From: a virus
Strand: one strand, 5' to 3'
DNA: 32,836 nt
Virus record (IMG/VR): IMGVR_UViG_3300013104_000059
Coordinates: 1 to 32,836 of that record
The notes under the pieces are model-generated. The model was not told the DNA's origin, did not search any database, and saw only the letters and a program-made list of their open reading frames with translations. A program made the translations under genes and the position numbers. Positions 18,558 through 30,906 of the stretch are shown in pieces; the first letter of the stretch is position 1, and the number at the start of each line of letters is the position of its first letter.

Positions 18558-19211
18558 TTAAATACTCATGTTACCAATTGCAGCACTTATGTCTGCTTCA
18601 GATGCCTCTTTCGTTGCCTTAGTATTGGCCGATTTAGGCTTTGTTTGTTGGCTCAAGCTTTTGTCTGAAAGATTTTGTCCGTAGTCAGCAGCATCAGCTT
18701 CAACTTCCTCAAGAAATGCATCAAACTCTTCTGGAGTATCGAATTTCATTCTCGAAAAGGCTTTCAATGTCAGTGCACTAAACTTCTCATCAACCCCTTG
18801 CAGCTTCGTTTCCAAAGCTTGTTTCCTTTGATCGACGGTTTTTCCTTGTTCTATTGCATTCAATCGATCGGTAACTTGTTTGTTCGATTCAATTAAAGCT
18901 TTTGCCCAAGCTGGTGTTTCCTTATCATCCTTACCAGGTTTAGGGGAGTTTGGATCTTCATCATCCTCTTTGCCCTTTTCTGCATCAGGTTTAACCCCTT
19001 TCAATGCAAGCTCAGCACGTCTGTCGCCTTCTGATTGGAAAAGTGTAAAGAAGCCCGTTACCAGACCTTCTGCATCTTCTACAGCATCTTCTACTTCCGT
19101 TTCTTCATTCACCCCTTTTTCAATGTGATCTGCAGCCTTATCAAGGATGCTTTTAGGTACATTTTTGTGCTTTGCTTTCAGTTTTTGAAAGATTTCTTTT
19201 CTAAATGCCAT
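18558..19211 (-). CDS. head scaffold protein
   Basis: A 217-residue, strongly charged helical protein: acidic stretch EEVDAVEDAEG-like near 35-50, linker DEDPNSPKPGKDDKETPAW (about 83-101), then coiled-coil segments (ALIESNKQVTDRLNAIEQGK, KQALETKLQGVDEKF) and a Lys-rich C-terminal region. High charge, coiled coil and position before decoration and capsid genes are the marks of an internal scaffold. I see no protease triad, so it probably lacks its own maturation protease. First gene of the left-hand late operon; promoter and operator-like sequences lie upstream. Confidence 0.65.
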   Translation of the reverse strand: MAFRKEIFQKLKAKHKNVPKSILDKAADHIEKGVNEETEVEDAVEDAEGLVTGFFTLFQSEGDRRAELALKGVKPDAEKGKEDDEDPNSPKPGKDDKETPAWAKALIESNKQVTDRLNAIEQGKTVDQRKQALETKLQGVDEKFSALTLKAFSRMKFDTPEEFDAFLEEVEADAADYGQNLSDKSLSQQTKPKSANTKATKEASEADISAAIGNMSI

Positions 19212-19229
19212 ATTTAAAAATTAACGTTA

Positions 19230-19239
19230 ACTAATTAGT
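19230..19239. promoter_or_regulatory. palindromic operator candidate ACTAATTAGT (copy 1)
   Basis: A perfect 10-base palindrome just upstream of the scaffold gene, overlapping the expected start point of the leftward late promoter. The same ten bases recur at 19331-19340 inside a longer palindrome. A perfect palindrome TTAACGTTAA lies beside it at 19221-19230. Binding of the XRE protein is an inference. Confidence 0.45.
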
Positions 19240-19244
19240 AGACT

Positions 19245-19252
19245 CAAAGATA
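19245..19252 (-). promoter_or_regulatory. late operon promoter candidate (-7 element TATCTTTG)
   Basis: The minus strand reads TATCTTTG here, an exact TAnnTTTG match for the Bacteroidota -7 element, 33 bases upstream of the scaffold start codon. No clear -33 TTTG is visible at the right distance, so strength is uncertain or an activator is needed. Confidence 0.4.
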
Positions 19253-19327
19253 AAGCAAAAAGTAAAAAATATATCTTATGGATATGTTTTATTCTCCATT
19301 ATGGTCTTAAATTGCAAATATGGTTAG

Positions 19328-19343
19328 TAAACTAATTAGTTTA
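19328..19343. promoter_or_regulatory. 16-base perfect palindrome TAAACTAATTAGTTTA (copy 2)
   Basis: Its core ACTAATTAGT matches copy 1 at 19230-19239, 101 bases away, roughly ten helical turns, so dimers at both could lie on one face of the DNA. It is flanked by the left arm of the inverted repeat. Confidence 0.5.
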
Positions 19344-19359
19344 TTTATTTTTTGATTTA

Positions 19360-19391
19360 TTTGGAATTGTAATATTTGCTAACCATATTTG
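19360..19391 (+). promoter_or_regulatory. rightward operon promoter candidate
   Basis: TTTG at 19360-19363 is followed after 20 bases by CATATTTG at 19384-19391, one mismatch from TAnnTTTG. The -7-like element lies inside the right arm of the inverted repeat, so a repressor bound there would block it. It would leave a leader of about 70 bases before the XRE gene. Confidence 0.4.
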
Positions 19392-19469
19392 CAAAGCGAT
19401 TACTAATAGAAGCAGCAACTTCTGGTAATAGCAGGACACAACAACAGTGATTAACTTAAATACAGCAAC

Positions 19470-19796
19470 ATGAACACAGAAAAGTGTAATGGGCTTGGTA
19501 TGGGTATAGACCAAGCCAACGGCAAGAAAGACCAAACTTACTTCCAAGAGATAAACGATCTCTTATCGATTAAAAAGTGTGTAAGCCACAACTTTAAACA
19601 CATCAGAAAACAAAAGGGGCTCACTCAACAGAAGTTTGCCGACTTGTTAGGAGTTAACAGGGCCGCATATGCAGCTTATGAGGAACAAAGAGCCGACCCG
19701 CCTTTGAATGTGGTAATAGTGGTTTCAAATCTGACTGGTATTGATATTAACACTCTTCTTACAGATGAGCTTATGGAGGATGTGAACAATGATTAA
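19470..19796 (+). CDS. XRE-family transcriptional regulator
   Basis: A 108-residue protein with one helix-turn-helix domain at about 38-95: VSHNFKHIRKQKGLTQQKFA, DLLGVNRAAYAAYEEQRADP, then the fourth-helix region LNVVIVVSNLTGIDINTLL. The first 35 residues are a polar N-terminal extension. It is the first gene of the rightward operon and faces the palindromic control region, so it probably binds there as repressor or Cro-like switch of its own operon and of the divergent late operon. It has no protease domain, so release would not be LexA-like self-cleavage. It overlaps the next gene by 8 bases. Confidence 0.85.
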   Translation: MNTEKCNGLGMGIDQANGKKDQTYFQEINDLLSIKKCVSHNFKHIRKQKGLTQQKFADLLGVNRAAYAAYEEQRADPPLNVVIVVSNLTGIDINTLLTDELMEDVNND

Positions 19797-20010
19797 TCAA
19801 TCTAAAACAGATCTTCAGGTATTTATGGATGCCTTTGGTAGCAATGTTAAAAACATTAAACCAGGTAGGATAATGTACAAGGCAAAGGATCTTGATCGAC
19901 AGGTTACAACTGCCCGACAACTTATAGAACAGCGTAAACTTAATTTAAGGGTAGTTAATGATGCTGATATGGCTTCATACAATGCTTTTGAAGTTTGGGA
20001 GGGTATGTGA
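19789..20010 (+). CDS. small operon protein of unknown function
   Basis: A 73-residue, basic soluble protein that starts inside the end of the XRE gene (8-base overlap) and ends in TGATG with the PP-loop gene. The middle (YKAKDLDRQVTTARQLIEQR) is helical, and the end (DADMASYNAFEVWEGM) acidic. Its fixed place between regulator and enzyme suggests an early phage role. I recognise no family. Confidence 0.55.
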   Translation: MINQSKTDLQVFMDAFGSNVKNIKPGRIMYKAKDLDRQVTTARQLIEQRKLNLRVVNDADMASYNAFEVWEGM

Positions 20011-21008
20011 TGACTCAAGGCACCCTGTTTGATTCCAATGGTATGATAAATTATGATGTTTACATAGTTTATTTTTCTGGTGGTAAAGATTGTACCGCTT
20101 CGGTATTACGGCTTATAGAAATGGGGGTGCCTAAACAAAAGATTGAATTATGGCATCATCATATTGATGGAATGGGTGACAATTTCATGGATTGGCCAAT
20201 CACTGAGGCTTACTGTCAAGCCTTCGCCGATGCACTTGGCTTAAAGATTTATTTTTCTTGGAAGGAAGGAGGCTTTAAGCGTGAAATGCTTCGAAAAGAT
20301 TCAAGGACAGCTCCCACAACATTTATTACTCCTGATGGAGAATTAATAACTGTTGGTGGAAATGGGGGGAAGGAATCAACAAGAAGAAAATTTCCTCAGG
20401 TCAGTGCTGACCTTAAAGTAAGATGGTGTTCCGCATATTTAAAGATAGATGTCGGTGCTACTGCTATTCGCAATCAGGCAAGGTTTAATGGAATGAAGGT
20501 ATGTACAATTTCGGGTGAGCGTGGCGAGGAAAGCACCGCTAGAAGCAAATATGAAAGGCTTGAGGCTGACAGGTCGGATAATAGAAATGGGAAAACACCA
20601 CGCTTTGTTGACAGGTGGCGTGTAGTATTAGATTGGGCCGAAAATCAAGTTTGGGATATTATTAAACGCCATAAAATCCGCGTACATCCATGCTACTATT
20701 TAGGCTTTAGTAGATGTAGCTGCCTATTCTGCATTTTCGGTAACGCTAACCAGTTCGCAAGTGCAGACTTGATAAATCCAAAAGGTAGTCAAGTGATACA
20801 GAATTTTGAGAGGGACTTTGGTATCACTATTAAAAGGGGCATGTCAATAGGTGAACTCATTAAAATGGGCACACCTTATAAATCAATAACAAAAAAATTG
20901 GCGGCATTAGCCATGTCGGACGCTTATGATCAGCAAATCATAATGCCAGACTCGGAAGAGTGGCTTTTGCCTGCCGGGGCCTTTGGCGAAAGCTGTGGGC
21001 CAGTGTAA
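20010..21008 (+). CDS. PP-loop ATPase, PAPS reductase-like family
   Basis: From the ATG at 20010 the product has 332 residues; GGAGGG lies 8 bases upstream and the start overlaps the previous stop (TGATG). The nucleotide-binding PP loop is YFSGGKDCTAS (S23-D27), followed by the family's IELWHHHIDG strand. RWCSAYLK at 138-145 matches the PAPS reductase substrate motif. A Cys-rich cluster follows: C228 and GFSRCSCLFC (C236, C238, C241), which could bind Fe-S or zinc. Phage members of this family are not shown to reduce PAPS; they may thiolate or otherwise modify a nucleotide or nucleic acid. The context of Nudix, ASCH-like and DUF5131 genes supports a nucleotide-related role. Confidence 0.85.
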   Translation: MTQGTLFDSNGMINYDVYIVYFSGGKDCTASVLRLIEMGVPKQKIELWHHHIDGMGDNFMDWPITEAYCQAFADALGLKIYFSWKEGGFKREMLRKDSRTAPTTFITPDGELITVGGNGGKESTRRKFPQVSADLKVRWCSAYLKIDVGATAIRNQARFNGMKVCTISGERGEESTARSKYERLEADRSDNRNGKTPRFVDRWRVVLDWAENQVWDIIKRHKIRVHPCYYLGFSRCSCLFCIFGNANQFASADLINPKGSQVIQNFERDFGITIKRGMSIGELIKMGTPYKSITKKLAALAMSDAYDQQIIMPDSEEWLLPAGAFGESCGPV

Positions 21009-21030
21009 AAAACAACAAAATCACAACAAC

Positions 21031-21243
21031 ATGAACACAACAGCAACAAAAATTACTGATGAAACGGCTATGCCTTTCGGAAAGTACAAGGGGACAGCAA
21101 TCGCCAACTTACCAGCAGGATATCTGCTATGGCTCTATCGCAATGAACGATCAGGGCAATTAACAGAGTACATCCTTGAAAACTTTGAGGCACTTGAAAC
21201 TGAAGCCGAAAAGGATGAAAAGAAAGGGGGCAAGAAATGGTAG
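21031..21243 (+). CDS. DUF3820 family protein
   Basis: A 70-residue protein with the DUF3820 signature: MPFGKYKG at 14-21 and LPAGYLLWL at about 27-35, then a helical acidic to basic tail ending KKGGKKW. I start it at the ATG at 21031; a longer frame reaches back into the PP-loop gene but adds only a Gln/Asn-rich tail. Members occur in many phages, with nucleic-acid-related roles suspected but not known to me. The next gene begins inside its last codons. Confidence 0.75.
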   Translation: MNTTATKITDETAMPFGKYKGTAIANLPAGYLLWLYRNERSGQLTEYILENFEALETEAEKDEKKGGKKW

Positions 21244-21416
21244 TTCAAACAGTTCTGAAACCAGATACAAAGATTATGTCCCCTGATGGGAACTTAATCG
21301 TGTTCAGTTACGAAGGTGGAATGTATGATCTTCGAACAAACGGGCGACAAATGTTAATCAATGAAGATGCTGTAAATCATCTTATCGAAGAAAGGGTATG
21401 GTCTGTTGAACCATGA
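21237..21416 (+). CDS. 59-residue protein of unknown function
   Basis: An overlooked short gene. AAAGGGGG precedes the ATG at 21237, it overlaps the DUF3820 stop (ATGGTAG), and its own stop forms ATGA with the following lipoprotein gene. The product (MVVQTVLKPDTKIMSPDGNL..., ending IEERVWSVEP) looks like a small beta-rich protein with a helical end. The good ribosome-binding site and both overlaps make it credible despite its length. No family recognised. Confidence 0.65.
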   Translation: MVVQTVLKPDTKIMSPDGNLIVFSYEGGMYDLRTNGRQMLINEDAVNHLIEERVWSVEP

Positions 21417-21697
21417 GAAAGCTACTCACCCTTAGCATCCTTTTAGCAGTAATAACCGGATGCTCCACTTATCGTAACTACCAACAAGTTGAATTTCCGG
21501 CAATTAAATTAACGGGAAAAGTTGATACTGTTTACTACACTTATCGGTGGGAGAAACAATTTAGATGGCTTTTAATTAAAGGTAAAGCCGTACATGTTTG
21601 GGACTTTAAAATAAAGCAGGGTGATTCTGTTACCATCAATATCAGAAGGATGGATCAGAGGCTTTGGGAAAAGAAAGGAGTGGTCAATGGAAAATAG
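21413..21697 (+). CDS. small lipoprotein in the early operon
   Basis: A 94-residue protein with a lipoprotein signal: MRKLLTLSILLAVITGC, lipobox VITGC with Cys17 as lipid site. The mature part of about 78 residues is basic and beta-rich (GKVDTVYYTYRWEKQFRWLL, VHVWDFKIKQGDSVTINIRR). It begins in ATGA overlap with the 59-residue gene and runs 11 bases into the DUF5131 gene. Prophage lipoproteins made from early or lysogenic operons often block receptors or DNA entry of related phages; that role is a guess from type and position. Confidence 0.75.
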   Translation: MRKLLTLSILLAVITGCSTYRNYQQVEFPAIKLTGKVDTVYYTYRWEKQFRWLLIKGKAVHVWDFKIKQGDSVTINIRRMDQRLWEKKGVVNGK

Positions 21698-22727
21698 TAA
21701 AATAGAATGGACTGATCACACTGCTAATTTATGGTGGGGTTGCCAAAAAGTTCACACAGGCTGCAAAAACTGTTATGCTGAAGCATTGGATAATAGGTAT
21801 AACCATGAGAACCCACATTGGGGGCCTGGTTCTTTTCGTAAAATTGTTAGCGGAGTTTGGAAAGACTTAAATAAATTTCAGCGGGAAGCTGCTAAAGCTG
21901 GTGTTTTTGCAAGGGTTTTCGTCGGTTCAATGATGGACATATTCGAAGATCCTATACCGGTAATGGATAACAACAACGTTTTAATTCCGAGGGACACTCG
22001 GATAGACGCGGCCAATGATCCAATGACTACCCAGCATTTAAGAACTATATTTTTTCATAACATCGATACGGGTATGTATCCAAACCTCATGTTTCTATTG
22101 CTGACCAAAAGGCCTGAAAACATTAATAAATATATACCTACAGCCTGGAGGCAATCACCTCCAAAGAACGTGATGTTTGGGGCTTCTGTAGTTGATCAAG
22201 CAACAGCACTGAAGCTTATTCCTGAGTTAATGAAGGTTAAGAATGCAAAACGTTTTCTGAGTTGTGAGCCGCTTGTTGGTCCAATTGATTTTGAGAACGG
22301 TTTGCATATGACTGATGGAGCTAAATACAATCCTTTAACTGTTGTTGATGATTTTTATCCAATTGACGGGGCAATGGGCGGCATTCATTGGGTTATTTGT
22401 GGAGGTGAATCTGGCCACAACGCTCGCCCTATGCATCCTAATTGGGCTACACAAATAAAAGAACAATGCGTTAGAGCATCAGTTCCTTTTTTCTTCAAAC
22501 AGTGGGGCGAATATCAGCCTACTGGATTTTACGATAGCACCGAGCACGTGATTTGGTTTAATAGCGAGTATAAAACGATCCAAAATACTCAGCCAAGAAT
22601 GTTTCAAATGTATGGCGATGATGGCCGAACAAGGGCAATGAAACGGGTGGGTAAAAAAGAAGCTGGTAATCTGTTAGAAGGCCAACAGTACAAGGAATTT
22701 CCTAGAGAGGAGGTGCCTAATGTTTAA
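21687..22727 (+). CDS. DUF5131 / phage Gp37-Gp68 family protein
   Basis: I start the gene at the ATG at 21687, with AAAGGAG 7 bases upstream; the product has 346 residues. The signature is the three-Cys N-terminus WWGCQKVHTGCKNCYAEAL (C19, C26, C29), followed by FVGSMMDIFED, LLTKRPENI, SCEPLVGPI, and WVICGGESGHNARPMHP with VPFFFKQWGEY. The family is thought to resemble radical SAM enzymes, but here the spacing is CX6CX2C and the reaction is unknown. It is frequent in phages and lies here with PP-loop and Nudix genes. It ends 8 bases inside the next gene. Confidence 0.85.
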   Translation: MENSKIEWTDHTANLWWGCQKVHTGCKNCYAEALDNRYNHENPHWGPGSFRKIVSGVWKDLNKFQREAAKAGVFARVFVGSMMDIFEDPIPVMDNNNVLIPRDTRIDAANDPMTTQHLRTIFFHNIDTGMYPNLMFLLLTKRPENINKYIPTAWRQSPPKNVMFGASVVDQATALKLIPELMKVKNAKRFLSCEPLVGPIDFENGLHMTDGAKYNPLTVVDDFYPIDGAMGGIHWVICGGESGHNARPMHPNWATQIKEQCVRASVPFFFKQWGEYQPTGFYDSTEHVIWFNSEYKTIQNTQPRMFQMYGDDGRTRAMKRVGKKEAGNLLEGQQYKEFPREEVPNV

Positions 22728-22968
22728 ACCTGAAGATTTAACATGGTTGCCTGGTGTATCAACAATAATGGCCAATGCTGAGGGTAAAAAGGCTATCGAT
22801 GTAACCATTATTGTAAATGGAAACAATGAGATTATTATGAAAGTGCCAAAGGATTGGTCAGTTGATACATTTTGGAATTCTTTTGCTCAAGGATGTCTTG
22901 CAATGGGTATTGTGCCTACAAAAATCCATGTTCAACGAGCTATTGTAAAGGAGATTAATAATGGATAG
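22720..22968 (+). CDS. operon protein of unknown function
   Basis: An 82-residue protein, overlapping both neighbours by 8 bases, with AGAGGAGG just before its ATG. It has a beta segment (IDVTIIVNGNNEIIMKVPKDW) and helices (SVDTFWNSFAQGCLAMGIVP, VQRAIVKEIN). No family recognised. Tight spacing shows that it is translated as part of the operon. Confidence 0.6.
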   Translation: MFKPEDLTWLPGVSTIMANAEGKKAIDVTIIVNGNNEIIMKVPKDWSVDTFWNSFAQGCLAMGIVPTKIHVQRAIVKEINNG

Positions 22969-23320
22969 TTTACGCAAAATAATTAAGGACTTTTATTCTA
23001 TTGAATATGATGCTAAGTTTTCGAAATCTGGCACTATAACTTTTCACAATCCTGATAGTTCCGAGTTCACCAAGCATGATTATGATTGGTACATCATCGT
23101 TGCTCTAGAAAAAGCAGATAAAGTTACGATCGATCGTCATTTGCTTACCCGAGAGCTATTATTGGGATATCGTTGGGCGATTCGTGAGGGATACCAGCAC
23201 GGTCTTGATGGCAATCTAAAGCGTGAATACGATTATCCACGCAATAAAAATACCATAAAGGGTATTCAAGGGTACATTGATCTAATTAAAAAACTTAGCG
23301 AAAAGGAGTATCAATCATGA
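22961..23320 (+). CDS. operon protein of unknown function
   Basis: A 119-residue soluble protein starting in the overlap with the preceding gene and ending 4 bases inside the Nudix gene. The sequence contains DWYIIVALEKADKVTIDRHL and LLLGYRWAIREGYQHG, probably helical, and a basic C-terminal helix. It has no obvious catalytic motif. I cannot assign a family; its place between DUF5131 and Nudix genes is all that can be said. Confidence 0.6.
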   Translation: MDSLRKIIKDFYSIEYDAKFSKSGTITFHNPDSSEFTKHDYDWYIIVALEKADKVTIDRHLLTRELLLGYRWAIREGYQHGLDGNLKREYDYPRNKNTIKGIQGYIDLIKKLSEKEYQS

Positions 23321-23748
23321 AATTATATGTATTAGGATTTGCATTTAGTGCAAATAAAAAAGAAATCGTTTTAATTGAGAAACAAAAACCAGACTGGCAA
23401 AAAGGAAAATTAAATGGTATTGGCGGCAAAATTGAACCAAATGAAGTGCCTTATTTGGCAATGGTTCGAGAATTTGAAGAAGAAACCGGAGTGAAAACAA
23501 ATATTGCCGACTGGGATTTATTCGGTGAAATGGTTTTTCAAACTGACATTATGGGTGGTGAGGCCAAAATATATCTATTCAGGATGTTCAATGACATTAT
23601 CGATGATTGTGTAACTAAAGAAGAGGAAGAGGTTTTAAGAGTGAATACTGATACAGTATTGAGCGTTTTTAGCTGCATGCATAATCTGCCAATACTAATA
23701 CCTCTTGCATTAAGTGATGAGTTTGGTTTTACAACATTGAAAGATTAA
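23317..23748 (+). CDS. Nudix hydrolase
   Basis: A 143-residue enzyme with a perfect Nudix box: G37 (x5) E43 (x7) R51 E52 F53 x E55 E56 x G58 V59, in GKIEPNEVPYLAMVREFEEE-TGV. The Glu residues bind divalent metal and the enzyme should hydrolyse a nucleoside diphosphate linked to another group. The upstream strand (LYVLGFAFS) and WQKGKLNGIGG are typical. Substrate cannot be told from the sequence; phage Nudix enzymes act on ADP-ribose, NAD-like or modified nucleotides. ATGA overlap with the gene before and a 2-base gap to the ASCH-like gene. Confidence 0.92.
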   Translation: MKLYVLGFAFSANKKEIVLIEKQKPDWQKGKLNGIGGKIEPNEVPYLAMVREFEEETGVKTNIADWDLFGEMVFQTDIMGGEAKIYLFRMFNDIIDDCVTKEEEEVLRVNTDTVLSVFSCMHNLPILIPLALSDEFGFTTLKD

Positions 23749-23750
23749 AT

Positions 23751-24233
23751 ATGACATTAGGATTTTCACAAGAAATAAAAGGTGTTAAGAACTTCTTTTT
23801 AGGGAAAATATGGCAAGGTTTGATAAACTTGGACGAACGTAACCTTGCGCACTATTGCCGTTACATGGATCAACATGATAAGCAATTCGGAAAGCTTTGG
23901 GAAGAGTCGGTTAATCATAAGCCTAAGGTCCACACTATACGTTCTGGTATTGGCCGATGGCGTCCAGGCATGGACATTCACATGGTCATCAATAATCGGA
24001 CTAAAAACCGGTTCCAGTTTGCGCCAACGATTAAATGTAAACGTGTACAGGAAATAAAAATAACATGGCAAAATGGATTCCCTGCAGTATTTGTAGATGG
24101 TGCTTATGTAAATAGACACTTAGTTGAAAAACTGGCTATTAACGATGGTTTTGAATCTGTCGATGATTTCTTCGCCTACTTCAACAAAGACTTTACCGGA
24201 ACATTAATTCACTGGACAGAACTTAAATATTAA
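23751..24233 (+). CDS. ASCH/PUA-like domain protein
   Basis: A 160-residue protein whose pattern resembles ASCH-type beta-barrel proteins that bind RNA or modified bases. It includes KPKVHTIRSGIGRWRPGMDI with HMVINNRTKNRF (ASCH-like 'HTIR...RW.pG..i' region), CKRVQEIKITW, an acidic VDGAYV segment and a C-terminal LAINDGFESVDDFFAYFNKD followed by LIHWTEL. Last gene of the rightward operon; a strong terminator follows. Given its PP-loop and Nudix companions, recognition of a modified nucleotide or RNA is a reasonable but untested idea. Confidence 0.65.
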   Translation: MTLGFSQEIKGVKNFFLGKIWQGLINLDERNLAHYCRYMDQHDKQFGKLWEESVNHKPKVHTIRSGIGRWRPGMDIHMVINNRTKNRFQFAPTIKCKRVQEIKITWQNGFPAVFVDGAYVNRHLVEKLAINDGFESVDDFFAYFNKDFTGTLIHWTELKY

Positions 24234-24239
24234 AACGAT

Positions 24240-24272
24240 AGCCGATTAGTTTATTTAATCGGCTTCTTTTTT
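24240..24272 (+). terminator. terminator of the rightward early operon
   Basis: AGCCGATTA (24240-24248) pairs over 9 bp with TAATCGGCT (24256-24264) around GTTTATT, then TCTTTTTT. It begins 7 bases after the ASCH-like gene stop and overlaps the 3' end of the convergent gene at 24251-24934, so it may work in both directions. Confidence 0.9.
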
Positions 24273-24934
24273 AATTTTTCATTCTCAAGTTTCAACTGCT
24301 TGTTTGAGTTAAGTAGTTCAATTTTCTCGTTATCAAACTTGGCCGCACCATTATCTTTGCCCAAATTGTATGCTTTATCCCAAACAGTCCAGTATCCACC
24401 TATCCCAACGACAAAAATACTCGCCCAGCCTGCGACTTTAATGTAAGACCATAGCGCTTTTGAAAATTTTTCTATTGAAAATCTTTTTTCTTTTTCTATA
24501 TCAGCTAATCTTAGTTGTAGTATTTTATTTTCTGACTTAATCCTATCTAGTTCAATTGTATTGGCCTTAAGAGCGTTTGATAATTTGGTGTTCAGATCAT
24601 TTTGTTGAGTAATAGTCATCCTTTGCTGGAAATCCTTATGGTCTGCTGATTGTACAGTTTCCTCATAAGGAGATATAAGTTGTTTTAATGTATCTAAAAG
24701 CTTTTTTTTGTCTATGTAAAAAGAGGTGTAGTTTATATTTCCACGCAACTCCCCGAATTTTAAAGATTGTATATGATAATATTGCAAGGATTTGTCTGGA
24801 ATCTCAAGTGTCAGCCATCCATACGCCTTGTTTCTTAAATCTTCAGCTTTCTTGACTGATGAGGTAGGCCATTTATTTTCAAACTCAAGCTCTTCTATTT
24901 CCTTTAAAATGGCTTTAATCTTTTGTAGGTTCAT
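24251..24934 (-). CDS. membrane-anchored coiled-coil protein
   Basis: A 227-residue protein. The N-terminal half is helical with KAYGWLTLEIPDKSLQYYHI and a possible globular domain. A coiled coil spans about 105-155 (LNTKLSNALKANTIELDRIK, LQLRLADIEKEK). One transmembrane helix lies near 165-185 (IKVAGWASIFVVGIGGYWTVW), and a second coiled coil follows to the end (LLNSNKQLKLENEKLKKK). Topology suggests a signalling or scaffold role at the inner membrane. No family recognised. It stands alone between the operon terminator and a divergent small gene, in the manner of a moron. Confidence 0.6.
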   Translation of the reverse strand: MNLQKIKAILKEIEELEFENKWPTSSVKKAEDLRNKAYGWLTLEIPDKSLQYYHIQSLKFGELRGNINYTSFYIDKKKLLDTLKQLISPYEETVQSADHKDFQQRMTITQQNDLNTKLSNALKANTIELDRIKSENKILQLRLADIEKEKRFSIEKFSKALWSYIKVAGWASIFVVGIGGYWTVWDKAYNLGKDNGAAKFDNEKIELLNSNKQLKLENEKLKKKPIK

Positions 24935-25033
24935 TTGTATCGGTTTAGTTACTGCAAGGTTAAAATTTTAATAACACCTTTCTTAAATAATTATACACAA
25001 TTGCCTGTTGTCAACATTGGTCTGACTTTTGTT

Positions 25034-25041
25034 TATATTCG
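25034..25041 (+). promoter_or_regulatory. promoter -7-like element TATATTCG before 25045 gene
   Basis: TATATTCG differs from TAnnTTTG by one base and ends 3 bases before the ATG, so transcription would begin at or near the start codon. TTG sequences lie 17-24 bases upstream. It fits a leaderless message. Confidence 0.35.
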
Positions 25042-25044
25042 TGT

Positions 25045-25398
25045 ATGACAGACGAAACATTCAGAATTAAAAGCAATACTGGTGATGATCTAATCGTTTC
25101 GATATGGGAGTATAAAAAGCTTCGCGATAAGATCCGAGCTAATCTTCAACAATTCTATAAAGATTGTGACTTTAGAGATGCTGGAATGGATGATCCAGAT
25201 ATTGTTTTCTTTTGCACCATCTATGGTAAAACGATCATTAAAAAATTCAATGCTGCCGAATGGCTTGAGGCCGAAAGGTCGGGCCAGTTTAATGAGAAGT
25301 ATTACGAATTCACCAAATCAAAAAAGAAATCTTCTGTTTCAATCGGTAGTATGGCCGGTACTGGTGATGGAAAGTTTAGGAGAAAGAAATCATTTTAA
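25045..25398 (+). CDS. small protein of unknown function
   Basis: A 117-residue protein with an ordered first 85 residues (VSIWEYKKLRDKIRANLQQF, DIVFFCTIYGKTIIKKFNAA) and a basic, Ser/Gly-rich C-terminal tail (SKKKSSVSIGSMAGTGDGKF ending RRKKSF) that could bind nucleic acid. It is the first gene of a short rightward unit ending at the tRNA-like element. No family recognised. Confidence 0.55.
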   Translation: MTDETFRIKSNTGDDLIVSIWEYKKLRDKIRANLQQFYKDCDFRDAGMDDPDIVFFCTIYGKTIIKKFNAAEWLEAERSGQFNEKYYEFTKSKKKSSVSIGSMAGTGDGKFRRKKSF

Positions 25399-25410
25399 TA
25401 ACTTTACATA

Positions 25411-25620
25411 ATGGAAAATAATTTCGCCGACCAGGTTGAATCAAAGGCAAGGCTTCAATTTAAGTTACACGTTGCTGATACTAATTTGGAAGAAATGATC
25501 GAAAAAGTTAAGTCTAGTGATGTTTCTGATAAAGTTAAACAAGAGCTCTTTAATTGGATCGATGAAGCGAGACCTAATTTAATGAGGGCAATAGCTTTAA
25601 AAGAAATATATAGGAAATAG
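25411..25620 (+). CDS. small helical protein of unknown function
   Basis: A 69-residue, probably all-helical protein (ADQVESKARLQFKLHVADTN, LEEMIEKVKSSDVSDKVKQE, ELFNWIDEARPNLMRAIALK). It lies 12 bases after the previous gene. A structured, tRNA-shaped stretch begins directly at its stop codon. No family recognised. Confidence 0.55.
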   Translation: MENNFADQVESKARLQFKLHVADTNLEEMIEKVKSSDVSDKVKQELFNWIDEARPNLMRAIALKEIYRK

Positions 25621-25692
25621 TTCCAGTTAGCTCAAAGAAAGAGGGTCCCACTAGATGGGGCAGATGCATGATTGAAAAGTAGTGCACTGGAT
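25621..25692 (+). ncRNA. tRNA-shaped RNA element (degenerate tRNA or novel RNA)
   Basis: The strand folds with tRNA topology. TCCAGT (25622-25627) pairs with ACTGGA (25686-25691). T-A follows. D-like stem CTC/GAG has loop AAAGAAA. A 5-bp anticodon-like stem GTCCC/GGGGC encloses ACTAGAT. After four bases, a 6-bp T-like stem (25666-25671 with 25680-25685, one mismatch) encloses TTGAAAAG. It differs from a working tRNA: no GG in the D loop, C at the U33 place, no TTC in the T loop, only 6 acceptor pairs. A terminator follows at once. Confidence 0.35.
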
Positions 25693-25725
25693 AGCCCTGG
25701 CAATTAATTTTGTTCAGGGTTTTTT
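25693..25725 (+). terminator. terminator after tRNA-shaped element
   Basis: AGCCCTGG (25693-25700) pairs with TTCAGGGTT (25714-25721; two G.T pairs) and is followed by a T run to 25725. It ends the rightward transcript just before the convergent gene at 25727. Confidence 0.75.
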
Positions 25726-25726
25726 A

Positions 25727-25945
25727 TTATGGAAATTGTCCTAAAACAATATAGTCATCATACCAATCGTCGAATGATTCATCTTCATCAGTGCATGTTA
25801 TTATGTTTTCTCCTTTGGTAATGTTTAGAAAATTATTCATGTGGTCTATTTGTTCAGGCCATATATTAACATCTCCGACTGCATCATCGCCAATGGCAAC
25901 AGCGATTTGCTTTGAGTGACATACTAGATAATAAACTTTACTCAT
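25727..25945 (-). CDS. small protein of unknown function
   Basis: A 72-residue acidic protein (KVYYLVCHSKQIAVAIGDDA, EDESFDDWYDDYIVLGQFP). It is joined by TAATG to the gene upstream, so both are one unit. The high acid content, with D/E clusters near the end, is of a kind seen in anti-restriction and immunity proteins, but this is only a composition remark. No family recognised. Confidence 0.5.
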   Translation of the reverse strand: MSKVYYLVCHSKQIAVAIGDDAVGDVNIWPEQIDHMNNFLNITKGENIITCTDEDESFDDWYDDYIVLGQFP

Positions 25946-26166
25946 TATCTTACAAATCTTTTTATCCGATCGGATAGTTCAATTAATACCTCTTTTGCCC
26001 TGGCTTCATCTGCCTCAATCAATCGCTGCTTTCCAGATCCGGCAATCTTCTCATTAATCTTATTGCTGAATACTTTAGCTGCATGCTTTTTATCCGGCCA
26101 CATTAAGTTAGCTAAAGCAGATTCTTTGATCACTTTATTCTCTTCTAAAAATTCTTTCAAGTTCAT
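25945..26166 (-). CDS. small helical protein, possible DNA-binding regulator
   Basis: A 73-residue basic, all-helical protein (LKEFLEENKVIKESALANLM, WPDKKHAAKVFSNKINEKIA, DEARAKEVLIELSDRIKRFV). The pattern of a short HTH followed by a long helix resembles small phage Cro-like proteins, but I cannot place the family. It is first in a two-gene leftward unit, divergent from the gene at 26268 across 101 bases of AT-rich DNA. Confidence 0.5.
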   Translation of the reverse strand: MNLKEFLEENKVIKESALANLMWPDKKHAAKVFSNKINEKIAGSGKQRLIEADEARAKEVLIELSDRIKRFVR

Positions 26167-26211
26167 GTATCAAATAAACAAAATATATATTAGAAAAAAA
26201 AGTAATATTTA

Positions 26212-26244
26212 TTTGGATTGTATTAGAAAATAATCTTATATTTG
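26212..26244 (+). promoter_or_regulatory. Bacteroidota-type promoter (TTTG ... TATATTTG)
   Basis: TATATTTG at 26237-26244 is an exact TAnnTTTG element. TTTG at 26212-26215 and TTG at 26218-26220 lie 21 and 16 bases upstream. The start codon at 26268 is 23 bases downstream. This is the best promoter in the window. Confidence 0.7.
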
Positions 26245-26267
26245 TTCTATACAAAAACGAAAAGATT

Positions 26268-26528
26268 ATGAAAGCTTTAGAAATCAAATTATTAGAAAAA
26301 CAAGTAACTGTTACTTACAACTTTTTTAGAGTTCAAAATGAAAAAGAATTTGTGAATACTGTTGTTTTTGACAACGGATATACTGAAAGATTGGATTCTG
26401 TAGCTAATGAATTAAGATTCGATACTTACAAAAACGAAAAAGCATTCAAAAATGCTTGGTCAAACAAAAAAAGGTTAGAGTTCATCAACGCTAACATCAA
26501 TGCGTTGCCTGATCAATGGACAAACTAA
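26268..26528 (+). CDS. small highly expressed-looking protein of unknown function
   Basis: An 86-residue basic protein (KALEIKLLEKQVTVTYNFFR, VFDNGYTERLDSVANELRFD, KNEKAFKNAWSNKKRLEFIN). It is a single-gene unit with the best promoter in the window and stem-loops behind it, and an A-rich leader, all suggesting strong independent expression, perhaps in the lysogen. Codons are AT-rich and its Asn/Lys/Phe content stands out from its neighbours. No family recognised. Confidence 0.6.
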   Translation: MKALEIKLLEKQVTVTYNFFRVQNEKEFVNTVVFDNGYTERLDSVANELRFDTYKNEKAFKNAWSNKKRLEFINANINALPDQWTN

Positions 26529-26538
26529 AAAACACTTG

Positions 26539-26580
26539 CCCCGACTCCAAAAAGGATCGGGGAAATTCCTGGAGTTTTTG
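26539..26580 (+). terminator. terminator region with two competing hairpins
   Basis: CCCCGA-C-TCC (26539-26548) can pair with GGATCGGGG (26554-26562). Alternatively ACTCC (26544-26548) pairs with GGAGT (26571-26575), extended by AGGA (26553-26556) with TCCT (26567-26570), leading into a T run. The two exclude each other. Position after the 86-residue gene suggests termination. Confidence 0.6.
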
Positions 26581-26581
26581 T

Positions 26582-26630
26582 AATATCGGCTAATTGTCCG
26601 ATATTTTCATTTATCGGGTATTCACCCGAT
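26582..26630 (+). promoter_or_regulatory. two further hairpins before the 26672 gene
   Basis: AATATCGG (26582-26589) pairs with CCGATATT (26598-26605), and ATCGGGT (26613-26619) with ACCCGAT (26624-26630). With the hairpin at 26539 this makes three stem-loops in about 90 bases. They share ATCGG/CCGAT, so partners can be swapped. Confidence 0.6.
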
Positions 26631-26659
26631 ATTATAATTTCTGAAGATTTTGAAATTTG

Positions 26660-26667
26660 TATATTTG
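26660..26667 (+). promoter_or_regulatory. -7 element TATATTTG directly before the 26672 start
   Basis: An exact TAnnTTTG element that ends 4 bases before the ATG. Transcription would begin at or beside the start codon, giving a leaderless message. No clear -33 TTTG is seen at the usual distance. Confidence 0.45.
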
Positions 26668-26671
26668 CCGC

Positions 26672-26890
26672 ATGAACTTACAGGATGTCGCCACATTAGA
26701 AGATTGGTTTAAAAGTGTTGAATTACCAAAGCCGCCGATAATGCTTTTCCCTGGAACGGTAATATCTGACTTAGATAAGTTCTTAGAGGTTCATTTTGCC
26801 GCTTTAAAAGCAAATCCGGATAGCAAGTCTAATGTTCCTGTTTGGCATCGCCTACGGGCATTAAAATTGCTAATAGAATCTAATCTTTAG
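26672..26890 (+). CDS. small protein, possibly DUF6965 family
   Basis: From the ATG at 26672 the product has 72 residues; the -7 element immediately upstream rules against the earlier TTG start at 26657. The sequence (LEDWFKSVELPKPPIMLFPG, TVISDLDKFLEVHFAALKAN, then VPVWHRLRALKLLIESNL) matches my recollection of a short Bacteroidota family with WF....LP..P..L.PGT and a RL..LK end (DUF6965); I have not checked it. It overlaps the 3' end of the convergent HicB-like gene by 11 bases. Confidence 0.6.
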   Translation: MNLQDVATLEDWFKSVELPKPPIMLFPGTVISDLDKFLEVHFAALKANPDSKSNVPVWHRLRALKLLIESNL

Positions 26891-27242
26891 ATGATTTCTT
26901 TCTAGGATAAAACTGATTTTCAAAATCTATTACATGTTGTGGTTTTTCAGTCCAAGTTGGTTTGCCTGTAGTTCTTTGTGGTGCAACATAATTACTTTTA
27001 ACTAAGTGAGCCTTGACGAAAAGAACCACAGGATCATCGGAGCCAGCGTTTCGTAAATGTGCTTGTAGTTTAGCATCCCAATTATTGACAGCCTCGGCAA
27101 CTGATGCACCAATACCTTTTACAGATTCGTGAATATCAGCAGGGAGCAAACAGATAAAACCTGGTGATTCGTTATAAACTTCAGCCCCAAGCTCCCCCGC
27201 TAATCCTTCGAGTTCAATATCAATATGCTTTCTTCTAGGCAT
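26880..27242 (-). CDS. HicB-like protein of unknown function
   Basis: A 120-residue protein. The first 20 residues are basic (MPRRKHIDIELEGLAGELGA). Then YNESPGFICLLPADIHES and KGIGASVAEAVNNWDAKLQAHL recall the HicB pattern of a 'GxG.tveEA..n...ai' helix. The C-terminal third (TTGKPTWTEKPQHVIDFENQ) is polar. It overlaps the DUF433 gene by 8 bases. HicB-like proteins are antitoxins; here it is paired with DUF433, not with a HicA RNA-binding toxin. Resemblance is from a pattern only. Confidence 0.45.
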   Translation of the reverse strand: MPRRKHIDIELEGLAGELGAEVYNESPGFICLLPADIHESVKGIGASVAEAVNNWDAKLQAHLRNAGSDDPVVLFVKAHLVKSNYVAPQRTTGKPTWTEKPQHVIDFENQFYPRKKSSKD

Positions 27243-27453
27243 TGCTGTCGTTTTTATGGTATAGTATTGCGGCAGGGATATCGTCTGGCTCTAAAATAGG
27301 ATGCTCTTTCAAGATCTGTTTGTGGCTCATTCCCGATTCTAGCATTTCGATAATATCCATAACGGTAAAACGATTGGCCCTTATCGTTGGTTTTCCTCCC
27401 ATGAGGCCCGGGACAATTGTAATTCGCGCCAAAAGTTCTTTATCCGTTGCCAT
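27235..27453 (-). CDS. DUF433 family protein (VapB-like)
   Basis: A 72-residue protein with the DUF433 signature: ITIVPGLMGGKPTIRANRFT at 11-30, then VMDIIEMLESGMSHKQILKE and HPILEPDDIPAAILYHKND. These proteins fold as a winged-helix-like DNA binder and often act as antitoxin to a DUF5615 (PIN-like) toxin. No DUF5615 gene is here; the following gene is HicB-like. It lies one base after the SRAP gene. Confidence 0.85.
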   Translation of the reverse strand: MATDKELLARITIVPGLMGGKPTIRANRFTVMDIIEMLESGMSHKQILKEHPILEPDDIPAAILYHKNDSNA

Positions 27454-27454
27454 G

Positions 27455-28177
27455 TTAAAACAAAGTCGTTTTAGGTTCTTCTACCTTCAATAAAGCTTCT
27501 GGTTTATTCCCGATCTTTACTAAATCCCTATTCACTCGATAAGCCGCCATGTTAGAATCATCGCAAGGATTCATTAGATGGATTACCTCTTCTTTACTGG
27601 TTGATGGATCTAGCCAGGAATTTATTTGATCATTTGAAATAATAATTGGTTGCCTTTTTTGACTGTTATGTATGCTTGCCATTAGTACGTTAGCCGGACC
27701 TGTGACGATGCTAAAAGATTTTATCCATTCCTTGGTGTCCGGATTTTTATAAAGAGCGTATAGACACGCCAGATTGAAAAACGGATGCTCTTTCGGATGA
27801 ATAAAATAGGGCAATTTGTCCTCATCCACCTCCTGGTACTCGAAAAAACCATTTACCGGCACAATGCACCGTTTGGTCATTATTGAACCTTTAAAAGATG
27901 ATAGATCAAATATCGTTTCAGATCTGGCATTTAAAGTTTTATTACTTTTTTTTACCATTTCTTCAAGGCTATAGTTCCAGTTAGGCATTAGGCCCCACTG
28001 CATGCGCTCAGTTTGCCGCGCACCATCCTTTGCCGATATTGCAACCAGGTTTGGATGAGCAAAACCGTTTGCATGGTAGTAAATCTGATCTTCTAGATCC
28101 TTTTCATTTAAAACTGGAGCTGCATAGTAATCAGCATACTCGTATGTTTTGGAAGTTTGGGTAGCTCTATAACACAT
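27455..28177 (-). CDS. SRAP domain protein (YedK/HMCES-like DNA-protein crosslinker)
   Basis: The 240-residue product starts MCYRA, exposing Cys2 after Met removal, the residue that forms a covalent adduct with abasic sites in single-stranded DNA. Other active-site residues are visible: N83 and R85 in TLNARSE, E113 in GFFEY, H170 in ASIHNSQKR. The length is normal for the family. It can shield abasic sites from cleavage and is common in phages and near DNA-damage genes. It lies in a leftward operon with small unknown genes and ends one base before DUF433. Confidence 0.93.
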   Translation of the reverse strand: MCYRATQTSKTYEYADYYAAPVLNEKDLEDQIYYHANGFAHPNLVAISAKDGARQTERMQWGLMPNWNYSLEEMVKKSNKTLNARSETIFDLSSFKGSIMTKRCIVPVNGFFEYQEVDEDKLPYFIHPKEHPFFNLACLYALYKNPDTKEWIKSFSIVTGPANVLMASIHNSQKRQPIIISNDQINSWLDPSTSKEEVIHLMNPCDDSNMAAYRVNRDLVKIGNKPEALLKVEEPKTTLF

Positions 28178-28207
28178 ACTCTAAATTAGTGATTAATCTT
28201 TCCATTT

Positions 28208-28495
28208 CTAATTTATTTCTGATTTTGGTGTGCCATGTAGAATAACTGAGCAAACATAATTGCCGTCGTACATAAATGAAACCTCAAGATCGAAGTGCAA
28301 TTTTATACCTGCAATTTTCATGCTTTCAAATGCAAATTCCGCCATAGCCTCATTTGATGCAAAAGGCCTTTCTTTTGGTATAAACAAGAATACCTTATTT
28401 GGCTCTGCTAGCTTTACATCTATTTTTAAAGTTGTAAAAATGTATCTCAGTCTTTCCGCGATAGTATTTAACGCTTCGTTGTACAAACCTTCCAT
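28208..28495 (-). CDS. small protein of unknown function
   Basis: A 95-residue protein with an alpha/beta pattern (LNTIAERLRYIFTTLKIDVK, KVFLFIPKERPFASNEAMAE, KLHFDLEVSFMYDGNYVCSV). It lies 5 bases after the 149-residue gene and 30 bases before the SRAP gene, so part of the same leftward operon. No family recognised. Confidence 0.55.
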   Translation of the reverse strand: MEGLYNEALNTIAERLRYIFTTLKIDVKLAEPNKVFLFIPKERPFASNEAMAEFAFESMKIAGIKLHFDLEVSFMYDGNYVCSVILHGTPKSEIN

Positions 28496-28500
28496 GAGAT

Positions 28501-28950
28501 TTAGTTTATGTAAATTTCTTCAATTTGTTCACTTCCTTCTTTTCCTAAGTAAATTATCAGGTCTTTATCAAACAATACTACATCATATACCTGATCTCGG
28601 ATAACCGATGCAAATTCAGATAAATTTACATCCGGATGGGCGATAAGCTTTAAACTATCGTCTTCGTTCCAGTCCCAACCTAAAAGATCATTAGGATACA
28701 TCTCTTTCAGTGCAAAAGGGAGATTGTAAATAGCAGCTTGCTCTTTTAAAGCCATAGATAAATCTGGAAGTTCATCCCTTAGTAAATCATCATCTGTTTG
28801 CCATCCGAATTCGGCATCATCATCTTTAACCATGGTGCCCAGATAGGCATCTCCAATAGTGACATTATAAACCTCGTCATCCTGATCAATACGAACCAAC
28901 ATAGGTTCTCCTACTTTAATCGGGGTATATGTAAAAGTGCTAGTGTGCAT
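28501..28950 (-). CDS. acidic protein of unknown function
   Basis: A 149-residue, very acidic protein (VRIDQDDEVYNVTIGDAYLG, MVKDDDAEFGWQTDDDLLRD, LLGWDWNEDDSLKL). The strong negative charge and size recall DNA-mimic or anti-restriction proteins, but also simple unknown Bacteroidota proteins. Two halves may be related beta-alpha units. A 14-base gap separates it from the upstream gene. No family recognised. Confidence 0.55.
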   Translation of the reverse strand: MHTSTFTYTPIKVGEPMLVRIDQDDEVYNVTIGDAYLGTMVKDDDAEFGWQTDDDLLRDELPDLSMALKEQAAIYNLPFALKEMYPNDLLGWDWNEDDSLKLIAHPDVNLSEFASVIRDQVYDVVLFDKDLIIYLGKEGSEQIEEIYIN

Positions 28951-28964
28951 AGTTTATATTTTGG

Positions 28965-29294
28965 TTATTTAAAGTTAACATTCTTACTTGGCTTTAGTTT
29001 TAAGTCATAATATTCCCACATCTTTTTCGTATGTTGCTGTATAAACTGGGATGCCCGTAAGATAGTTTCGTTTGCTATATCAAGCCCCTGTCTTGGGTCC
29101 ATCAACACCAGCTGAGGAGCAGAAGCTTGATTTCTGTGAACTTTTATGTCTTCATTTGAAAATGCAAATTCTTCTGGAGTATACCACTTCTTTGTTGTTT
29201 TGCTATATATCCATTGGTTATTTGCTTTTGCTTTTAGTGCCAGATGTGCCCGATAATCGCGGCCAGGATCTGGCTGTGGTCCCCATGAACTCAT
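28965..29294 (-). CDS. small basic protein of unknown function
   Basis: The 109-residue product starts MSSWGPQPDPGRDYRAHLAL. The ATG at 29294 overlaps the previous stop as ATGA, so I prefer it to the TTG at 29300. The central segment (KANNQWIYSKTTKKWYTPEE) and a C-terminal helix (ASQFIQQHTKKMWEYYDLKL) are basic. No family recognised. Confidence 0.55.
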   Translation of the reverse strand: MSSWGPQPDPGRDYRAHLALKAKANNQWIYSKTTKKWYTPEEFAFSNEDIKVHRNQASAPQLVLMDPRQGLDIANETILRASQFIQQHTKKMWEYYDLKLKPSKNVNFK

Positions 29295-29644
29295 TCCCAA
29301 TCTGGATTTTTAACATTAAAAGTATTTTTATATAATTCGCCCCTGCCTCTTACTACTATTCCAAAAGAATATCCTCTGTATCCAATTTTTTTTAAAAAAA
29401 TTCCAAGGTTCGGAATCAAAATTTGTTCGATCATCTTGGGTGCCATATCTTTTACTTTTCCTTTGAAATACCTATCTGTATATAATTCATTAAATCCAAC
29501 TAAATCTATTACAATATCAGCTCCTTGAACTTCAACTAATTTATCTAAACTCAATATCCATGGCCTCATATAGTCATTAAGCCAAAACCAGCTTTGTATC
29601 TGGCGTTCAAGCGCGGGTTTATATCTTCCAAAATTTAATTCCAT
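29291..29644 (-). CDS. small protein of unknown function, first of leftward operon
   Basis: A 117-residue protein with aromatic-rich N-terminus (QIQSWFWLNDYMRPWILSLD), a beta stretch (DIVIDLVGFNELY) and a basic C-terminus (IGYRGYSFGIVVRGRGELYK). It is the first gene of the seven-gene leftward unit that runs to 26880, and divergent from the gene at 29730 across 85 bases. No family recognised. Confidence 0.55.
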   Translation of the reverse strand: MELNFGRYKPALERQIQSWFWLNDYMRPWILSLDKLVEVQGADIVIDLVGFNELYTDRYFKGKVKDMAPKMIEQILIPNLGIFLKKIGYRGYSFGIVVRGRGELYKNTFNVKNPDWE

Positions 29645-29698
29645 AACTATAACCGCACAAAGTTTGCTAATATTTTTAGCAATTCAAAATTATTGATA

Positions 29699-29706
29699 TA
29701 AATTTG
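29699..29706 (+). promoter_or_regulatory. -7 element TAAATTTG before the 29730 gene
   Basis: Exact TAnnTTTG match, 23 bases upstream of the ATG at 29730. No -33 TTTG is seen at the right distance (the nearest, at 29663, is too far). Confidence 0.4.
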
Positions 29707-29729
29707 TAGAGAAATTAAGAGTGATTGTT

Positions 29730-29954
29730 ATGGCTAAGAAATTCAAATTCAGAAAAATGTACTTTCATTGCAGGGATGGTAAAGTAATCGCAGATAATGT
29801 ACAAATGACTAATGCCTATCGTGAAAGGAAAGATGCTGAGGCTACTTTGGGGTACGATGATGGGCACAAAATGTGGGACGATAAAACTAAACCTATCCCA
29901 AAGCGAACTGTAGAGGGCTTTTACCTGGTACATGAGAGTTTATTTGAAAAATAG
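29730..29954 (+). CDS. small basic protein of unknown function
   Basis: A 74-residue protein from the ATG at 29730 (MAKKFKFRKMYFHCRDGKVI); a GTG three codons earlier is possible. Rich in Lys and Asp, with ADNVQMTNAYRERKDAEATL as probable helix and ending GFYLVHESLFEK. First of five short rightward genes behind the MuF gene. No family recognised. Confidence 0.55.
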   Translation: MAKKFKFRKMYFHCRDGKVIADNVQMTNAYRERKDAEATLGYDDGHKMWDDKTKPIPKRTVEGFYLVHESLFEK

Positions 29955-29983
29955 TATCTTTATTTAAAATTAAATTATGCTCT

Positions 29984-30187
29984 ATGACAAAAAATGAATT
30001 AAGAAAAGTGTATTTCTCATACTGGGACAGCATGGGGATTGATCACAAAGGGTACTTTCACGGCATCGGTAATTTCTACAGCGCTGATAAGGAAGGAATA
30101 ATCACTTTGGCGGTAGTTGAAGAGGCTGAAACTGGTAACATGATGAAAACCGAAGTGGATTTAATAAGGTTTGTCGATAAATGGTAG
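29984..30187 (+). CDS. small protein of unknown function
   Basis: A 67-residue protein (ELRKVYFSYWDSMGIDHKGY, FHGIGNFYSADKEGIITLAV, then VDLIRFVDKW). Its pattern looks like a small beta-rich fold. It overlaps the next gene by 7 bases (ATGGTAG). Confidence 0.5.
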   Translation: MTKNELRKVYFSYWDSMGIDHKGYFHGIGNFYSADKEGIITLAVVEEAETGNMMKTEVDLIRFVDKW

Positions 30188-30378
30188 TGAAGTTAGATGA
30201 TGAGTTGGCAGAAAGCATGACTAGGCCACAGTTTTATTTAGATTCAGCAGCTGCACCTGATCGGAACGATTTTTATTATAAAATAACCCATGGAAATGTC
30301 GATTTCGAAGTTAGATGGAGTAAAGACATTGCAGTTACTAATCCTAAATGGCATATTATAGTTACGAAATTGAATTAA
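30181..30378 (+). CDS. small protein of unknown function
   Basis: A 65-residue protein (VVKLDDELAESMTRPQFYLD, FYYKITHGNVDFEVRWSKDI, ending KWHIIVTKLN), joined to both neighbours: ATGGTAG before and TAATG after. This coupling makes it real. No family recognised. Confidence 0.5.
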   Translation: MVVKLDDELAESMTRPQFYLDSAAAPDRNDFYYKITHGNVDFEVRWSKDIAVTNPKWHIIVTKLN

Positions 30379-30623
30379 TGAGGCATTCCGAATCAGAAAT
30401 AATTGAGAAAGCGTTTGACCAATTAGGAAGAGACCGATCGCTTATAATGCACCGTGATCAAACGGTACAAGAAATTTTCTTTATTGAGAAAAATGATACA
30501 GATGTTATTCAGTTTCACAAACATACCTATTTGGTTAAATTCGTGAAGTCCGAAACTTATCCGCATGTATGGGATTTTGATGAGATTATCGATTGGAGAA
30601 TTAGTCCAATGATCAACAAATAA
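30378..30623 (+). CDS. small protein of unknown function
   Basis: An 81-residue protein, started at the ATG that forms TAATG with the previous stop (an in-frame start at 30348 would overlap the preceding gene by 31 bases). Sequence features: ESEIIEKAFDQLGRDRSLIM, a beta stretch QEIFFIEKNDTDVIQFHKHT and aromatic C-terminus YPHVWDFDEIIDWRIS. No family recognised. Confidence 0.55.
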   Translation: MRHSESEIIEKAFDQLGRDRSLIMHRDQTVQEIFFIEKNDTDVIQFHKHTYLVKFVKSETYPHVWDFDEIIDWRISPMINK

Positions 30624-30627
30624 AATT

Positions 30628-30906
30628 ATGAAAACAATATTTGATTATAATCCTTCTGAAAAAGAGTTGATAGAGCTTTTTGGTTTCGATAAAAGGTCAG
30701 ATTCAATGGCTTATGGCTTTTCTGTATTTTTATTGCCAAATAAAAATTACGAAAAAGAAAATACCGACGATGGTAAGTTATTGGACATTGCGAAGCTTTT
30801 GGAATTTAGAGGGCAGAAAGAAGAAGCTGCTGATATTTGGGTCCAAATTCCAGATATTGAAAGACAGTACCGTTCTGGCTTCGATTACCAGGTAGTAACC
30901 GTCTAG
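30628..30906 (+). CDS. small protein convergent with MuF gene
   Basis: A 92-residue acidic protein (PSEKELIELFGFDKRSDSMA, LLDIAKLLEFRGQKEEAADI, WVQIPDIERQYRSGFDYQVV). Its stop codon abuts that of the MuF gene with no base between. Being the last of a set of short unknown genes beside a protein with a toxin-like domain, it is a candidate immunity protein, by position only; immunity genes usually follow in the same direction. Confidence 0.5.
   Translation: MKTIFDYNPSEKELIELFGFDKRSDSMAYGFSVFLLPNKNYEKENTDDGKLLDIAKLLEFRGQKEEAADIWVQIPDIERQYRSGFDYQVVTV

Follow-up and report, generated by a model that had tools for sequence, protein, structure and literature searches.

We identified an operon-like unit of 11 compact open reading frames (ORFs) at positions 19470-24233, all on the + strand, in the 32,836-base virus record IMGVR_UViG_3300013104_000059 (the window, meaning the whole stretch of DNA that was analysed). 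Neighbouring ORFs overlap or are separated by at most ~20 nt, and an intrinsic terminator closes the unit (24240-24264, + strand; a 10-pair stem and a T tract, -13.7 kcal/mol, z -4.5), so the eleven-gene unit proposed in the initial annotation is real. A promoter scan gave no more sites than were found in shuffles, and therefore we do not claim a promoter. The first gene encodes a helix-turn-helix (HTH) regulator of XRE/RstR-like type (19470-19796; PF01381, 3.9e-10); it is followed by the small gene s73 (19789-20010; no family match in Pfam and phrog profile searches), a PAPS-reductase-like PP-loop gene (20010-21008), a DUF3820/QSregVF_b gene (21028-21243; PF12843, 7.6e-10), the small gene s59 (21237-21416), a small putative lipoprotein gene (21413-21697; a weak lipoprotein-signal match only, E 0.53), the DUF5131 (Gp37/Gp68 family) gene (21687-22727; 346 amino acids; PF07505, 2.2e-67), the small genes s82 (22720-22968; without a significant family match) and s119 (22961-23320), a MutT-like Nudix hydrolase gene (23317-23748; PF00293, 4.7e-10), and a gene for a phrog_8581 protein (2.4e-15) with a probable ASCH/PUA-like fold (23751-24233). 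The assignments of the first, fourth, and sixth genes refine the earlier gene list; the earlier family calls for the PP-loop, DUF5131, and Nudix proteins agree with the matches to PF01507 and phrog_424, to PF07505, and to PF00293 together with the Nudix box, respectively.

The DUF5131 protein carries a CX6CX2C motif (C19, C26, and C29) that is invariant in 60 relatives; at least 597 relatives were confirmed, and in one locus (L009) the gene is split across two frames. In PADLOC, it scores as a B component of the candidate defence systems PDC-M30 (PDC-M30B, 1.8e-46) and PDC-M41 (PDC-M41B, 2.9e-45). It shares with radical S-adenosylmethionine enzymes three invariant cysteines and has a weak match (1.5e-8) to rSAM mobile pair A (TIGR04471), but that match reaches 34 bits against a curated cut-off of 355, and the canonical motif of those enzymes is CX3CX2C, not CX6CX2C. 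A fold search of its predicted model (predicted local distance difference test, pLDDT, 86) against PDB gave no significant match; the best matches are TIM barrels, including DesII, and are weak (E 0.02-0.1). Text searches of the open-access literature returned no paper naming DUF5131 or Gp37/Gp68, and none on a DUF5131-ASCH pairing.

The phrog_8581 protein contains the motif HTIR...NDGF...HWTELKY. It had been called ASCH/PUA-like, a call that is only partly borne out: the protein does not match the Pfam profile PF04266, and its PDB sequence search returned chance matches only, but phrog_8581 also includes a protein deposited as “ASCH domain-containing protein”, and the top four PDB matches of its predicted model (pLDDT 75) are all ZmASCH, though weak (prob 0.63-0.84, E 0.2-0.5). 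Because of the shared phrog and these fold matches, we consider it a probable ASCH-type protein, with nucleic-acid binding as its predicted role; within the ASCH superfamily (ZmASCH, YqfB), its predicted fold is nearest to ZmASCH.

The PP-loop protein matches PF01507 (4.8e-9; 36.9 bits against a curated cut-off of 22.5) and phrog_424 (7e-26), and contains an SGGKD motif and a Cys cluster (C236/C238/C241). Its nearest PADLOC defence models are BrxP (1e-12), DndC (3e-7), and SspD (1e-4), with which it has the PAPS-reductase region in common, but it lies far under the equivalog level of DndC (TIGR03183, 5.7e-8; 32.1 bits against 290.4). We found no other Dnd, Brx, or Ssp component, including DndA/D/E, among the operon proteins scanned; a Dnd or BREX system was thus rejected, since only this protein matches the models and their companions were not found there. 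Neither does the protein reach the level of CysH (TIGR00434, 16.1 bits against a cut-off of 165.1). It is a distant relative of the CysH-like PAPS reductases of phages P2 and 186 (24-25% identity to 186 and P2), but forms a subfamily apart from them, with its own conserved C-terminus, LPAGAFGE. A CysH-like PAPS reductase is a moron in the Burkholderia phages JC1 and CSP3 (PMC9144972, PMC10269572), and the PAPS reductase gene of phage 186 is reported to be nonessential (PMC10269572). When the PP-loop sequence alone was the query, a search among viruses gave no match; an alignment of three PP-loop sequences retrieved 44 loci. A PP-loop protein 51% identical to that of the window is encoded in Pseudoalteromonas phage KB12-38 (L083); it is clustered there with another PAPS reductase, a gene resembling C5 methylases, and a homologue of DndB (PF14072, 2.8e-59), and together they are possibly a phage phosphorothioation-like cluster.

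The Nudix protein scores 40 bits with PF00293 (cut-off 21.1) and has an intact Nudix box (GKIEPNEVPYLAMVREFEEETGV, fitting GX5EX7REUXEEXGU); its equivalog matches are all under cut-off. At the E-value limits used, sequence searches of PDB found no match for the PP-loop and Nudix proteins and no solved relative of DUF5131.

Close relatives and the neighbours of DUF5131

We compared the operon with those of two close relatives found by capsid protein (L087, 96% identical; L088, 86%; the L088 sequence ends inside s119, so that its comparison covers the operon only up to there). Single genes or short blocks are cleanly absent in these relatives. For example, s73 runs straight into the DUF3820 gene in L087, with ~30 bases between them, and the PP-loop gene is therefore precisely absent; in L088, the same slot, bordered by s73 on the left and by DUF3820 on the right, is filled by a different phrog_424 protein (2e-11) that BLAST could not align to that of the window. 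The genes from the lipoprotein to ASCH are absent in L087; in L088, s59 is followed directly by s119, so the lipoprotein, DUF5131, and s82 genes are cleanly absent. The conserved frame of the operon is HTH (68% identity in L087, 57% in L088), s73 (76-78% in the two), DUF3820 (85% and 65%), s59 (59-61%), and s119 (62% over 48 amino acids in L088), and the enzyme genes are inserted or replaced in slots of this frame. A search with s73 for further phages returned only L087 and L088.

Since the enzyme genes are swapped between close relatives, the operon is not one fixed pathway. The initial annotation had suggested that the four enzymes could be joined in a single nucleic-acid or nucleotide modification pathway, which would evade restriction. 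The compact single transcription unit with its terminator, the BrxP, DndC, and SspD models nearest to the PP-loop protein, and the DNA methylases (read from sequence) that recur beside DUF5131 are all consistent with such a pathway; however, the PP-loop gene is missing from L087, and L088 lacks DUF5131 though it keeps another PP-loop protein. Gene neighbourhoods weigh the same way. Neighbours were counted by script, with genes taken as simple longest-ORF calls, in record sets that include related phages. Among 62 loci collected by the PP-loop protein, DUF5131 lies within ~6 kb in one, and no neighbour family occurs in more than five; a PAPS reductase scores over cut-off in 4 of 47 records with DUF5131, and a Nudix gene was found in none of the 49 records searched (these 47 together with L087 and L088). 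By these counts, neither the PP-loop gene nor the Nudix gene is linked to DUF5131, and we regard the joint four-enzyme pathway as very unlikely.

We then find a different picture for ASCH. Of the 13 ASCH genes that the PF04266 profile detected in the 47 DUF5131 records, 10 are no more than 2 kb from DUF5131, where 1.2 would be expected (P 9e-9, an approximate value because several PF04266 matches are under the curated cut-off and the records G005 and G006 are near-duplicates). All 10 of these near genes are on the same strand as DUF5131, and nine are downstream of it. With iterated profiles, 22 of 80 DUF5131 loci have ASCH-type genes, of several subfamilies, no more than 2 kb from DUF5131 (a count that is biased, because some profile seeds were chosen near DUF5131), and only 1 of 25 ASCH-type genes lies beyond 4 kb. 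The window's own type, phrog_8581, is the immediate neighbour of DUF5131 in 5 of the 7 records having it, at 15-78 bp (P ~1e-6). Among the annotated isolates viewed, the deposited ASCH gene of Rhizobium phage RHph_N28_2 overlaps the end of DUF5131, and in the marine virus S20 a phrog_8581 gene lies ~16 bp after it; in the five other annotated isolates viewed, an ASCH gene was not recognised beside DUF5131. As a control, ASCH occurs in 5 of 44 PP-loop records, and in two of these five it is beside a DUF5131 gene. Thus the families vary independently of one another for PP-loop and Nudix, but not for DUF5131 and ASCH, the only repeated partnership found. One 115 kb record (G064, the record of L149) has two phrog_8581 genes, and each of them has a weak match to DUF5131 nearby, at a distance of ~0.7 kb or 2.1 kb.

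The link between DUF5131 and ASCH is one-sided: it holds when loci are collected by DUF5131 and is weak in reverse. Of 80 loci with close relatives of the window's ASCH protein, only two have DUF5131 within ~6 kb, and the genes that do recur beside these relatives are other early genes of phages. We rejected an obligate pair for this reason (78 of the 80 close ASCH-relative loci lack DUF5131). The weak reverse association also favours the view that these are unlinked early genes gathered by a variable small-gene region, the adjacency of DUF5131 and ASCH being functionally meaningless. A tyrosine-recombinase-like integrase lies within 3 kb of DUF5131, nearly always downstream of DUF5131, in 17 of the 80 loci (L025, L033, L060, and 14 others), and such integrase-side accessory blocks, where DUF5131 is thus often found, are places where many small genes accumulate. 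Chance gathering does not readily explain why phrog_8581 lies within 80 bp of DUF5131, on the same strand, in most of the records that have it, nor why the adjacency spans hosts as different as those of Rhizobium phages and the marine virus S20; we therefore consider this view a real possibility, though one with less than an even chance.

We also examined DUF5131 genes in bacteria, and found them in 53 of 297 Bacteroidota genomes. Among the fetched Bacteroidota loci (L184-L213), TcmP is beside the chromosomal DUF5131 gene in 22, and seven of the fetched chromosomal loci have a type I specificity-like (HsdS-like) gene, identified by reading the sequence. TcmP with DUF5131 makes up the PADLOC candidates PDC-M30 and PDC-M41, of which TcmP is the A component (NCBIfam TIGR04474 partner). 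The window protein is homologous to the B component of these systems, but the phage DUF5131 is longer (346 versus ~245 amino acids) and has ASCH-type neighbours instead of TcmP. Neither the window genes nor the 49 phage records contain a TcmP that we could find by the same means that detect it in the bacterial loci, and a TcmP-DUF5131 system in the window was rejected.

This difference in partners, the HsdS-like gene in the seven bacterial loci, and the adjacency, shared strand, and several subfamilies of the ASCH genes would fit a two-part phage module, in which DUF5131 acts on a DNA or RNA base that the ASCH protein recognises or processes, possibly to counter restriction. Against such a module, 58 of the 80 DUF5131 loci have no ASCH gene within 2 kb at the sensitivity used, the two genes may simply both belong to early regions (as the weak reverse association allows), and both activities are predictions. 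We hold a two-part module to be possible but tentative; it is compatible with the explanation that we prefer below, and the bacterial DUF5131 has the other partner, TcmP.

The phage and its variable island

The window is a temperate tailed phage, with an integrase near a tRNA-Ala gene; its capsid and tail genes occupy the minus strand as far as position 19211. The host is probably one of the Bacteroidota, judging from the relatives of the PP-loop protein in Bacteroides, Dysgonomonas, Flaviramulus, and Aquimarina, and from the best annotated-phage match of the ASCH protein, which is in Elizabethkingia phage TCUEAP3. The operon lies in the gap between a scaffold-like gene (18558-19211), the left border, and a MuF-type head gene (30907-32718, reverse strand; its Pfam match is under the curated cut-off). 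Using the MuF protein as a query, we retrieved 16 related loci. In the relatives that show both borders, this gap is a variable island of ~1.5 kb to 11.7 kb, the window (19211-30907) having the largest; the other island loci are L089, L090, L091, L093, L094, L097, L099, L101, L104, and L142. In these MuF-related phages, most island genes run in the direction opposite to that of the head genes. The island contents differ from phage to phage and include PP-loop, ASCH-type, and DUF4942/methylase-like proteins and an ADP-ribosylglycohydrolase.

Several other features of these regions were observed. A small protein, phrog_10608, with the motif YFGS..AI.E, is encoded in L093 (13528-13854, reverse strand), and similar genes are found in L091, L094, L097, L099, L101, L108, and L142 (recognised by eye, except in L093); the protein seems recurrent across the majority of the islands, for which it may serve as a marker. 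The C-terminal part of the MuF protein, past about residue 366, is common to few relatives, contains an HExxH-like motif (WHEILHAK), and is possibly an effector or toxin domain fused to MuF. In the window (26880-27453, reverse strand), the genes for a DUF433 protein and for a 120-amino-acid protein without a family overlap, in a toxin-antitoxin-like arrangement; the latter gene is retained in L087 (57%) and DUF433 is not.

Interpretation of the operon

Three things are observed: the operon-like layout, genes cleanly absent from close relatives, and a statistical association of DUF5131 with nearby ASCH-type genes. We think it likely that the operon is an accessory (“moron”) operon of independent genes in the variable head-gene island, holding one candidate pair, DUF5131 and ASCH. 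Several points weigh against this explanation: at least three families share the operon, and together with the conserved frame and the repeated use of the PP-loop slot this could reflect shared regulation or a common target; that frame is common to only two relatives; the reverse association of ASCH with DUF5131 is weak; three genes separate DUF5131 from ASCH in the window; and the activity of every operon enzyme is deduced from sequence.

With the accessory operon as the preferred explanation, each enzyme would have nucleic acids or nucleotides as its target during conflict between phage and host. DUF5131 would be a metal- or iron-sulfur-dependent enzyme whose three-Cys cluster alters or repairs a nucleobase, and the ASCH protein a probable reader or processor of the treated base; the PP-loop protein would work on its own, in the manner of BrxP, DndC, and SspD of defence systems, and the Nudix protein would be an independent nucleotide hydrolase. 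The nucleic-acid theme of the initial annotation is therefore kept as plausible, because methylases lie beside DUF5131, BrxP, DndC, and SspD are nearest to the PP-loop protein, and DUF5131-TcmP is a catalogued defence candidate; its single joint pathway is mostly not retained.

The four-enzyme guess is replaced by a testable point, namely that DUF5131, an enzyme widespread in phages, recurrently has an ASCH-type gene beside it there and TcmP as its partner in bacterial chromosomes. If DUF5131 and ASCH work together, the partner hints at the nucleic-acid step of DUF5131. A bolder suggestion, which we think unlikely at present, is that they form an undescribed phage module for editing, repairing, or masking a nucleobase, one that would correspond to the DUF5131-TcmP defence candidate of bacteria; if it were true, the same DUF5131 enzyme would serve on both sides of the phage-host conflict, with different partners.

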